Shown one piece after another: positions 8,671 to 12,008 of a stretch of 33,707 bases of DNA. The notes under the pieces are model-generated. The model was given only the letters and a program-made list of their open reading frames with translations. It was not told where the DNA came from and did no database searches. Each line of letters begins with the position of its first letter. Position 1 is the stretch's first letter. The DNA lies in assembly GCA_039801245.1 (NCBI GenBank), contig JBDRUF010000018.1, forward strand, positions 1 to 33,707, in the 5' to 3' direction. Source of the stretch: a candidate division WOR-3 bacterium (GTDB lineage: Bacteria > Hydrothermota > Tepidihabitantia > Tepidihabitantales > Tepidihabitantaceae). Made by a program: the position numbers and the translations under genes.

Positions 8671-10278
8671 ATGATGGAGCCATTTCCGCGAAGGCCGGTA
8701 GTAGTGTGTTGTTATGACCAGGTAGCAAAGTTTGCCAATTTGGTTGAGGCGGCAAAGAGGTTTGAGAATGGCAGGCTTTTTGCTGAGTTTGAGTTTGTGT
8801 ATTGCGACAGCCTTGAGGCAATAAAAAGATTCTACAACCGCAGTCAGAACAGATATGTGGCATTGATTGTGCTCGGGGTTGATTTCAGTGAGATTGACAA
8901 TGAGCAGAAGCTGGTATCCTTTCCTTTTGGTCTGCGACCGTTCGGCATAGCAGTTGACATCCGTCAGGTGCAGGGTTTTATCATCTATCAGCATATCCGC
9001 CAGTCAGGCCTTGACCGCCTGGCACCGGTCCTCTTTCATCTTGACGGGGGCACCGAAATTGAACCTCAACAGTTTCTTGACTTCATCCACTGCCCCGACC
9101 TCGGCGGGTGTATTTTTTTCACCGCCGAACCCAGTGAGCGGTCGCTATTTGAGCTGCTGAGCAGGATTGACGGTTGTGCACTACGACCGCTGAGCCCAGA
9201 GCAGCGGATTAGCTGGCAAAAGCGGCATAAGATGGTGGTGGGCAGGTCAAGGCGGATGGCGGCACTGGTGCGGGACATTGAGCGAATTGGACCAACCGAT
9301 GGAATTGTGCTGATTTTGGGACCTCAGGGCTCGGGCAAGGAGTTAGTGGCAGGGGCATTGCACCGTTTAAGCTACCGCTATCTTGAAGGTGACCCGCTCC
9401 GGGAAAAGCCGGTGGTGGTGAATATGGGGACACTTGATCAAAACCTTGCTCTTGACGAGCTTTTCGGTCATGTTGCGGGTGCCTATACCGATGCCAAAAC
9501 CCCACGGGCAGGGATATTTGAAACTGCGAAGGGGTCAACCGTCTTTCTTGACGAGATTGGGGATATCGGTCTGGAGCTGCAGGCAAAACTGCTGCGGGTG
9601 ATTGAATACCGGCTGGTGAAAAGGTTGGGGAGTTCCTTGGAAAAGGAGGTTGATGTGCGCATCCTTGCTGCGACAAACAAGCCGATAAATGAGCTGCAGG
9701 AGCGCTTTCGCCCGGACTTTTACAGCCGGCTGGTCCAGCAGTGCCTGATGGTGCCATCTTTAGAGGAGCGCTGGGATGGTGAGGCAGCTGAGACGGTTGA
9801 AGCCGATATTGCCGATTTCTTTAACTTTTTTGTGCAGGAGATGAATAACAATCGCAGATACCGGCAAAAACTGCTACCGGAACCGGCTGCGATAAAATTC
9901 CTCACCCAGGTTGTGCTCCAGCATATTGAGGGCAAAATGGATATTTTCTCAGGGAATGTGCGGACTTTGCGGGCATTAATTGAGCGTTCCTATGAAAGGG
10001 CACAGTACGAGCAGGCAAATGTGGTGGGCGTTGGTCAGGTGGCTACCGCGATAACCCATTTTCAGGCACAGCGGGCATCGGTCAAAACCACAGAGGGTAA
10101 GGGGAGGGGCGGCTTATTTGAGAACCTGCTGGGAACCCTGAGGCTCAATGAGATTGAAAAGGCGGCGATCAAGGAGGCGCTGATGAGAAGCGGAAACAAC
10201 AAGAGCCAGGCTGCAGTATTACTTGGCATTCACCGTGACACCCTGCGGAAAAAGATGAGAGAGTATCGCATCGAATAA
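8671..10278 (+). CDS. Sigma-54-type AAA+ transcriptional activator with degenerate receiver-like domain and Fis HTH
   Basis: This is a bacterial enhancer-binding protein of the NtrC class. Residues about 1-185 look like a response-regulator fold by strand spacing (VVVCCYD, VALIVLGVDF, APVLFHLDGG, IFFTAEP), but the conserved Lys is missing, so phosphorylation is doubtful. The AAA+ domain has Walker A GPQGSGKE (217-224), the sigma-contact loop GAYTDA (270-275, canonical GAFTGA) and Walker B VFLDEIGD (291-298). The C-terminus (about 500-535) is a Fis-type HTH (NNKSQAAVLLGIHRDTLRKKM). There is an unusual insertion around 365-420 (EERWDGEAAETVEADIADFF). The gene is single, with a sigma-70-like promoter. 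A sigma-54-like -24/-12 site lies 134 bp past its stop, in front of a structured RNA candidate, which is a plausible local target. Confidence 0.9.
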   Translation: MMEPFPRRPVVVCCYDQVAKFANLVEAAKRFENGRLFAEFEFVYCDSLEAIKRFYNRSQNRYVALIVLGVDFSEIDNEQKLVSFPFGLRPFGIAVDIRQVQGFIIYQHIRQSGLDRLAPVLFHLDGGTEIEPQQFLDFIHCPDLGGCIFFTAEPSERSLFELLSRIDGCALRPLSPEQRISWQKRHKMVVGRSRRMAALVRDIERIGPTDGIVLILGPQGSGKELVAGALHRLSYRYLEGDPLREKPVVVNMGTLDQNLALDELFGHVAGAYTDAKTPRAGIFETAKGSTVFLDEIGDIGLELQAKLLRVIEYRLVKRLGSSLEKEVDVRILAATNKPINELQERFRPDFYSRLVQQCLMVPSLEERWDGEAAETVEADIADFFNFFVQEMNNNRRYRQKLLPEPAAIKFLTQVVLQHIEGKMDIFSGNVRTLRALIERSYERAQYEQANVVGVGQVATAITHFQAQRASVKTTEGKGRGGLFENLLGTLRLNEIEKAAIKEALMRSGNNKSQAAVLLGIHRDTLRKKMREYRIE

Positions 10279-10411
10279 AGAAATTTAGCCGTTGTTTTAG
10301 GCAAATTGGCGTAAATTTCGGCGGGTATAAATGAAACTAACGAGTTGCAAAAATAGTTAAATTTTTGTAAATCAAGCAATTAGAAAGCCAAATACAACCC
10401 CAACTTAAAAA

Positions 10412-10427
10412 TGGCACAAATTTTGTA
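10412..10427 (+). promoter_or_regulatory. Sigma-54-like -24/-12 promoter
   Basis: TGGCAC (10412-10417), five bases, then TTGTA (10423-10427). The consensus is TGGCAC-N5-TTGCA/T. The -24 element and the spacing are exact, while the -12 C is T. Predicted initiation is near 10438, immediately ahead of the structured segment. It is the only intergenic site of this form I noticed, and it directly follows a gene for a sigma-54 activator. TGGCAC hexamers also occur by chance inside genes. Confidence 0.4.
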
Positions 10428-10437
10428 TTAATATAAA

Positions 10438-10566
10438 AAGAGGACCGAGCCGCAACTCTGTTTTGGGGGTGAGTTTCGCTGCCCCTTTCGTCAATCCTAT
10501 CTCAAAAAGGGGGGCGAAAGCATGGTGTGCCAGCCATAGGGAATGGTGCACCATGCTTTATTTTAT
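10438..10566 (+). ncRNA. Candidate structured small RNA (about 129 nt)
   Basis: The segment folds as three consecutive hairpins. The first pairs AACTC (10454-10458) with GAGTT (10471-10475). The second pairs 10474-10488 with 10506-10519 (TTTCGC with GCGAAA, CCCC with GGGG, TTT with AAA). The third is a 12-bp stem, 10520-10531 with 10545-10556, followed by a T-rich tail. It is bounded by the sigma-54-like element upstream and the tldD promoter (10598) downstream, so it is transcriptionally separate from both genes. I matched it to no known riboswitch, 6S RNA, SRP RNA or tmRNA. Hairpins one and two share two bases at their boundary and so could switch. Existence as a stable RNA is inference. 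Confidence 0.45.
10520..10566 (+). terminator. Intrinsic terminator of the RNA candidate
   Basis: GCATGGTG (10520-10527) pairs with CACCATGC (10549-10556). The stem is extended by TGCC/GGTG, including two G-U pairs, to 12 bp around a 13-nt loop. TTTATTTTAT follows at 10557-10566. It could also end read-through from the activator gene. Confidence 0.75.
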
Positions 10567-10597: not shown

Positions 10598-10625
10598 TTG
10601 ACAAAGGGGCTGTAATTTTTATGCT
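10598..10625 (+). promoter_or_regulatory. Promoter of the tldD operon (near-leaderless)
   Basis: TTGACA (10598-10603), 16 bp, TATGCT (10620-10625). The -10 ends 9 bp before the tldD ATG (10635) and no Shine-Dalgarno lies between, so the leader would be about 2-4 nt. Confidence 0.6.
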
Positions 10626-10634
10626 AAAGAGTAA

Positions 10635-12008
10635 ATGAGTTCAATGAAACCGTTTCTCAAATCTATCCTTTCCGGTCTGGCGGTTGATTATGCTGATATC
10701 AGAATTGAGGAGAGTGAAGAGAGTACAATAATTTTTCGTGGTAAGGAACTTGACGAGATTGGCACAGGTTTTGAAAAGGGTGGTTGTCTAAGGGTTTTTC
10801 ATCGTGGGAACTGGGTGGTGGGGACATTTACTATCGTAGATGACGGTCTTAGAGAGTTGGCAAGAGAGCTGGCTGCCCAGGTAACAAAACTGCCCCCCCG
10901 GGAGGGTGGGGTGGTAGGTCTGCCAGCATTTGAGGATACTGTCCGCTTGCCAGCCGAGCATGACCCTCGGAGCGTGTCGTTAGAGGAAAAGCACGGCTTG
11001 ATAAGCCATTACAACAAGACGCTCCTTGCTCAACCAGGAATTGCGAGCACCCACTGCGCCTATCATGATGCCCATCGATTTGTTTACTTTTGTTCAAGTG
11101 AGGACCGCTATTTAGAACAAGAGTTTGCCTGGGCTGGCTTTTCCTGCCGGGCAATTGCCCGGGACGGGAACAACATCCAGGATTACGGCGAGTCGATTGG
11201 CAAAACATGGGGTTTTAACGCACTTCGCGGCCAAGAGCCGATGGTGGAAAATGTGGCAAAGATTGCCCTCGATTTACTTAAGGCAGAACCAGTTCGGGCA
11301 GGAGTTTATACGGTAGTGATTGACCAACGCCTGGCAGGGGTTTTTGCCCATGAGGCCTTTGGCCATCTGAGTGAGGCAGACCACATTGCGGAGAACGAAC
11401 GGTTAAAGGAGTTGATGCAAATCGGCACAAGGTACGGGGTGGAGGAGTTGACTATAATTGACGATGCCTCTCTGCCATGTGAAAAAGGGAGTTACCGCTA
11501 TGATGATGAAGGGACACCGGCAAGGCGGACAGAACTGATTAAGAACGGGGTTCTCGCTGGGCACCTTCATAACCGCCAGACCGCGTACCTGATGGGTGAA
11601 CCGGTTTCAGGAAACGGAAGGGCAATATCCTATCGATTTGCACCCATAGTCAGGATGAGCAACACATTTATCGAGCCGCGCGACAAGACCCTTGAGGAGC
11701 TTTTGGATGGGGTTGAGTATGGTCTTTATCTTGCAGGGAGCCGGGGTGGCATGACCGAGCTGGAAACATTTACATTCTCCTCCCAGTACGCTTATCTCAT
11801 TGAGAATGGTAGGATTACGAAGATGGTCAGGGATGCAACTCTTTCAGGGAATGTCTTTCACACCCTGCGAAACATTGATGGGATTGGGAATGATTTGGTA
11901 CTTTATGGCGGATTAGGAGGCTGCGGAAAGGGCGGCCAGAGCCCCTTGCCCGTGGGCTTGGGTGCGCCTCATATTCGCATTAGGAATGTGGTAATTGGTG
12001 GAAGGTAG
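10635..12008 (+). CDS. tldD: TldD-type zinc metallopeptidase
   Basis: TldD is the catalytic partner of the TldD/TldE heterodimer, a cytoplasmic metalloprotease that trims unfolded peptides and, in other bacteria, matures peptide antibiotics such as microcin B17. The zinc site HEAFGH (H239, E240, H244) fits the family's HExxxH motif, and the Cys of GGCGK near the C-terminus is the expected third ligand. The 457-residue length is normal. The gene heads an operon with tldE and a LonB-like protease, from a TTGACA promoter only a few bases upstream. No RiPP precursor was found nearby, so a housekeeping proteolytic role is more likely than toxin maturation. Confidence 0.93.
   Translation: MSSMKPFLKSILSGLAVDYADIRIEESEESTIIFRGKELDEIGTGFEKGGCLRVFHRGNWVVGTFTIVDDGLRELARELAAQVTKLPPREGGVVGLPAFEDTVRLPAEHDPRSVSLEEKHGLISHYNKTLLAQPGIASTHCAYHDAHRFVYFCSSEDRYLEQEFAWAGFSCRAIARDGNNIQDYGESIGKTWGFNALRGQEPMVENVAKIALDLLKAEPVRAGVYTVVIDQRLAGVFAHEAFGHLSEADHIAENERLKELMQIGTRYGVEELTIIDDASLPCEKGSYRYDDEGTPARRTELIKNGVLAGHLHNRQTAYLMGEPVSGNGRAISYRFAPIVRMSNTFIEPRDKTLEELLDGVEYGLYLAGSRGGMTELETFTFSSQYAYLIENGRITKMVRDATLSGNVFHTLRNIDGIGNDLVLYGGLGGCGKGGQSPLPVGLGAPHIRIRNVVIGGR

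Follow-up and report, generated by a model that had tools for sequence, protein, structure and literature searches.

A sigma-54-dependent gene for a small regulatory RNA very likely lies in the window (the whole 33,707-nucleotide stretch of DNA analysed, contig C18 of a 1.70 Mb, 97% complete genome); its start would lie near 10438 and its end at the terminator at 10518-10564, and it is very probably switched on by the activator encoded upstream. Arrangements of this type have been described before; what is new is the RNA family, the phylum in which it occurs and a setting that apparently lacks Hfq. The find adds a small-RNA family that is well delimited and previously undescribed, with a promoter and a terminator predicted and a regulator likely, and it places an activator beside its sRNA far from Proteobacteria and Desulfovibrio. 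The RNA is directly testable because its likely regulator is known.

WOR-3 is an uncultured phylum. Nearly all of the relatives used, from a GTDB-derived collection, are listed as "candidate division WOR-3 bacterium" and are now assigned to the phylum Caldifarciminota. Neither this name nor literature on WOR-3 small RNAs with sigma-54 was found in the paper library searched.

Table 1. Coordinates of the features in and around the predicted RNA gene
Feature	Position	Strand	Remarks
Sigma-54 activator gene (bacterial enhancer-binding protein)	8671..10278	+	535 aa; Pfam PF00158, PF02954
Spacer, activator stop to promoter	10279..10411	+	133 nt; upstream binding of the activator would be expected here
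Sigma-54 promoter TGGCAC-AAATT-TTGTA (predicted)	10412..10427	+	GG 10413-10414, GT 10425-10426; conserved in 16 species
Predicted transcription start	10438	+	12 nt past the -12 base; from the sigma-54 position rule
Small structured RNA	10439..10565	+	~125 nt; model R1 match, no Rfam match
Central helix of RNA, CCCCUUU / AAAGGGG	10482..10512	+	10482-10488 paired with 10506-10512
Intrinsic terminator	10518..10564	+	15-bp hairpin AAGCATGGTGTGCCA..TGGTGCACCATGCTT and T-rich tail
Separate sigma-70-type tldD promoter TTGACA-N16-TATGCT (predicted)	10598..10625	+	promoter scan and conservation
tldD/pmbA-type protease gene	10635..12008	+	Pfam PF19289; downstream neighbour, outside the cassette

Sigma-54 site

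The original prediction had described a sigma-54-like site, TGGCAC-N5-TTGTA, of exact spacing and intergenic position. The site (TGGCACAAATTTTGTA, 10412-10427, + strand) was found as described, downstream of the activator stop codon (10278) and ahead of tldD (10635). Matches to the sigma-54 consensus with one mismatch are not rare, with 8 found in the window where 3.3 would be expected, and 144 in the whole genome on both strands against 46 for a reversed-pattern control, and the site is therefore unproven by pattern alone.

Relatives were found by means of the N-terminal domain of the activator, their surroundings were fetched, and the sequence behind each ortholog was read. A DNA similarity search of the spacer among 41 relatives gave nothing useful because the spacer nucleotides diverge too fast. 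A sigma-54 site of exact spacing was present ahead of the RNA in 16 of 16 species (the window counted), these being all the species whose sequence covers the place. In a shuffle test restricted to the 128 nt ahead of the RNA, the best site of each of the 16 species was reached by 0.05-1.2% of dinucleotide shuffles. When the 16 sites were stacked, the -24 bases GGCA and the -12 bases TG carried 2 bits each and most key bases 1.3-2 bits, while the flanking columns averaged 0.15 and 0.34 bits. The GG of the -24 element was present in all 16; the C of the -12 element was kept in 13 and replaced by T in three, including the window. Conservation of the -24/-12 bases among relatives, on which the original prediction had hinged, was thus nearly complete over 16 species, and its one mismatch (C to T in the -12 element) proved not to be peculiar to the window, TTGTA being common to the window, G009 and G013. 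On this comparative evidence, conservation lifts the site above chance.

A chance consensus match beside an ordinary hairpin would draw on the fair frequency of one-mismatch sites in the genome, on another such site inside tldD at 10760 and on the imperfect -12 element of the window. Set against the joint conservation of site and RNA in 16 species, which already makes such a coincidence very unlikely, this explanation was given almost no weight.

No sigma-70-like site turned up when the + strand was scanned from the activator stop to the RNA. A search of the spacer for activator binding sites gave only weak dyads (Fisher p 0.03 over the 16 species; p 0.13 for the window). Points against the promoter of the window are a -12 element with GT rather than GC, an activator loop of the form GAYTDA, and the failure of the search to give a convincing activator binding site.

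The structured segment might instead be the 3' end and terminator of the activator mRNA, perhaps processed to a stable fragment, with the sigma-54-like site incidental. The RNA does directly follow the activator gene, a + strand scan showed no other terminator between the two, and in Azotobacter a cbrB-crcZ read-through transcript is processed into a CrcZ variant (PMC6292655). This explanation is nevertheless improbable, since 16 species preserve the -24/-12 bases but not their flanks, and since in G013 the RNA, together with its sigma-54 site, lies apart from the activator gene. A separate sigma-54 start and read-through from the activator gene may both operate together.

Structured RNA

As had been predicted, the segment after the predicted start is strongly structured, folding better than its shuffles with z of -2.5 to -3.4. 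A covariance model (R1) built from ten relatives, with the window left out, recovered the copy of the window (10439-10565; 36.4 bits, E 3.1e-9). Alignments showed that the RNA begins just before the strict motif GACCGAGCC (10443-10451) and also contains a GCGCUC block, the central helix and the terminator hairpin. The copy of the window has the lowest score among the full-length copies and is without part of the UCGCGCUC motif.

The position of the central helix is kept in relatives as GUCCCC/GGGGAC, GUUUCGGCUG/CAGCCGGGAC and AAUCCCCUU/AAGGGGAUU, with changes on both sides in three of six model pairs. The terminator hairpin was present in 16 of 16 copies (96.9% of cells paired), and nine of its 12 model pairs showed changes on both sides; the covariation counts of both helices are biased towards the structure, because the alignment was fitted to it. 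For the two helices together, shifting the partners by 1-3 columns cut the pairing from 91.6% to 34-60%.

No Rfam family reached its gathering score in the window or in six relatives, CrcZ, Qrr and other sRNA families being among those unmatched, and relaxed thresholds gave chance-level matches only. Judged from these comparisons, the RNA is a new, undescribed family.

The possibility that the transcript codes for a short peptide instead of acting as RNA is suggested by the same genome, in which a sigma-54 site, a ribosome-binding site and a 19-codon frame come after an activator gene on contig C3. A peptide frame in the RNA was rejected, as no reading frame was common to the 16 copies and frames were broken between relatives as close as G003 and G009. 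Conservation instead tracks RNA pairing, and coding by this transcript is accordingly most unlikely.

The strictly conserved motifs of the RNA are GACCGAGC, GCGCUC and GGGGAC. The pyrimidine strand that follows GCGCUC has two possible partners in several relatives, a purine strand upstream of it and the GGGGAC downstream; the assessment of the alternative helix around GCGCUC was based on visual inspection of the copies and on pairing probabilities. The alternative pairing is a lead towards a two-state RNA and not a result.

The terminator loop AGNNCCCAC (L098 and relatives) is nearly invariant in many copies of genera g1, g2 and g4 and differs from that of the window. In several copies, its sequence would allow pairing with GUGGG close to the 5' end of the RNA.

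Distribution and linkage

Strong copies of the RNA were found by whole-genome covariance search in 15 genomes of the family to which the window belongs (f1); the copy of the window itself fell under the stricter genome-wide filters, the copy of G012 is cut by a contig end, and the contig of G017 ends before the RNA. A second search, of 147 genomes, gave no copy at E <= 0.001 in any other family of the phylum. Extra weaker model matches, mostly antisense and on the palindromic terminator, were excluded from the copy counts; one weak extra match, on contig C298 of G010, scored 27 bits. On viral contigs, a short gapped motif matched unselectively at more than 100 places, and on plasmids nowhere.

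The activator orthologue lies directly ahead of the site and RNA in 15 of the 18 genomes of the family (G000-G007, G009-G012 and G014-G016). Of the remaining three, G008 has an assembly gap on the upstream side, the contig of G017 ends, and G013 has activator and RNA apart. In G013, the RNA and its promoter lie with tldD on contig C73 (L145 1-620) and the activator on another contig, both being kept, a separation that fits an activator able to work in trans. The cassette of activator and RNA proposed in the original prediction is strongly supported by the relatives; "self-contained" was too strong a term, because the RNA and promoter of G013 sit apart from the activator gene.

The sigma-54 promoter might serve tldD-tldD-lonB, with the RNA as their leader carrying an attenuator. 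Indeed, tldD, tldD and lonB follow the RNA in the window and in four relatives of g1 and g2, and RNA and tldD stay together in G013. The genes after the RNA vary by genus, however, with tldD in g1 and g2 and others, e.g. a glycosyltransferase, in g4, while the activator is still in front. Moreover, a strong terminator and a promoter of conserved TTGACA/TATxCT form, found ahead of tldD in G013 too, lie between RNA and tldD; its TTGACA is invariant in five species of two genera. Since the downstream genes change while the activator stays, and since tldD has its own promoter, the RNA is no tldD leader and, with the exception of G013, travels with the activator. Pairing of the RNA with the start region of the activator gene or of tldD gave no consistent signal above shuffles: only the tldD start of the window reached p 0.03, and its relatives did not. 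A leader for tldD is thus very improbable, and we retain the reading of a separate RNA gene.

Activator orthologues in families f2, f3 and f5 (G018-G024) are without an RNA detectable by the model, which leaves two histories for the RNA: a gain in family f1, or divergence outside it too great for recognition. In family f3 the activator closes a run of genes with PpiC-type rotamase and beta-propeller proteins.

Activator protein

The gene ahead of the site had been called a sigma-54-type activator, and a Pfam search bore this out, with an AAA+ sigma-54 activator domain (E 2.7e-45) and a Fis-type HTH. The protein has Walker motifs GPQGSGKE and VFLDE and, with its GAFTGA-type loop, the full set of features of a sigma-54 activator (AAA+, loop, HTH). 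In the sigma-54 contact loop, the window has GAYTDA, its nearest relatives (G001-G003, G009 and G013) have GAFTDA, and the others GAFTGA or GAYTGA. The D-type loop by itself is no sign of inactivity, because GAYTDA and GAFTDA are both on record for Desulfovibrio activators with assigned regulons, the GAYTDA variant being given for DVU2275 of D. vulgaris (PMC4641369). The change to GAFTDA/GAYTDA spans genera g1 and g2, all other relatives having GAFTGA/GAYTGA, and is thus clade-wide.

The N-terminal domain had no match in Pfam, the receiver family included. Its AlphaFold2 model (pLDDT 77) has receiver topology, with the (beta-alpha)5 fold; the top PDB match was the LuxO receiver 3cfy (E 4.9e-5), and most PDB matches at E <= 0.001 were receivers. 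The Asp of the third strand is kept in all members, and a conserved receiver-type Lys is absent. From the model, the domain may be an atypical receiver, perhaps non-phosphorylated or unusual.

Proposed function and comparison with known systems

The neighbouring activator very probably switches on the RNA. A signal would be taken in by its receiver-like domain, after which the activator would be bound upstream through the Fis-type HTH, somewhere in the 133-nt spacer, and its AAA+ domain would open the sigma-54 complex at the promoter. Sigma-54 RNA polymerase would then transcribe from the predicted start, giving an RNA of ~125 nt that ends at the terminator hairpin. The RNA would act elsewhere in the cell, most likely by mRNA pairing or protein binding through its strictly conserved motifs.

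Qrr RNAs act together with Hfq. Searches of the 97%-complete genome for Hfq and CsrA yielded neither, an absence that the missing 3% or a divergent protein could explain; as neither was detected, the CrcZ and Qrr mechanisms are not simply transferable. The alternative pairing of the pyrimidine strand and the conserved motifs make a two-state or protein-binding RNA conceivable, rather than an ordinary antisense sRNA. A tentative proposal, which we hold to be on the doubtful side, is a lineage-specific class of regulatory RNA, of one Caldifarciminota family, that would act without Hfq or CsrA and would have, besides its strictly conserved motifs, a pyrimidine strand with two alternative partners, the upstream pairing exposing the GCGCUC loop.

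The same arrangement is known experimentally from Desulfovibrio vulgaris, in DVU0679 with its downstream sRNA Dv_sRNA2 and in DVU0653 (PMC3333781, PMC4641369). There too, a non-coding RNA lies immediately behind the gene of the sigma-54 response regulator whose target it is, and the arrangement is apparently conserved in relatives. The WOR-3 case differs from DVU0679 in its phylum and in the divergent receiver-like domain of its activator, which Pfam missed; Dv_sRNA2 is likened to the WOR-3 RNA by arrangement, not by direct sequence comparison. In CbrB-CrcZ of Pseudomonas and Azotobacter, an NtrC-type activator controls the sigma-54 promoter from which an sRNA is made (PMC6292655, PMC6296734), and activator and sRNA genes are likewise neighbours, as cbrB-crcZ co-transcription shows. 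CrcZ, however, antagonises the Hfq/Crc repressor, whereas Hfq was not found in the WOR-3 genome and the RNA has no Rfam match to CrcZ. In LuxO-Qrr1 of Vibrio, the sRNA gene adjoins the sigma-54 activator that activates it (PMC8043402). Both systems have an activator with a receiver or receiver-like domain beside an sRNA, the LuxO receiver being the best structural match of the WOR-3 N-terminal domain; unlike the WOR-3 RNA gene, qrr1 is divergent and upstream of luxO, and the WOR-3 RNA has no sequence match to Qrr in Rfam. By analogy, the WOR-3 RNA most likely works like those of cbrB-crcZ, luxO-qrr1 or DVU0679-Dv_sRNA2, with no sequence relationship detected.

Sigma-54 elements elsewhere in the genome

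The original prediction presupposed an rpoN gene, and one is present and intact, coding for a 474-aa RpoN with AID, CBD and DBD domains. Four strong and three weaker matches to sigma-54 activator domains were found in the genome. A search for further sites near activator genes had been suggested, and perfect sigma-54 sites do adjoin two other activator genes, which indicates that sigma-54 regulation is probably working in this organism.

On contig C3 (L061, minus strand, ~1516-1320), the perfect site TGGCACAAAAATTGCT comes after one of these activator genes, together with a ribosome-binding site (GGAGG), a proline-rich frame of 19 codons (MDGPFAPIYPPPIPAPPTA) and a strong GC hairpin, possibly a sigma-54-driven micropeptide gene. 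On contig C2 (L060 1410-1520), the perfect site TGGCACATTATTTGCA stands immediately behind a third activator gene, where the next gene begins, and a further perfect sigma-54 site lies ahead of a gene in L059, on contig C2 too.
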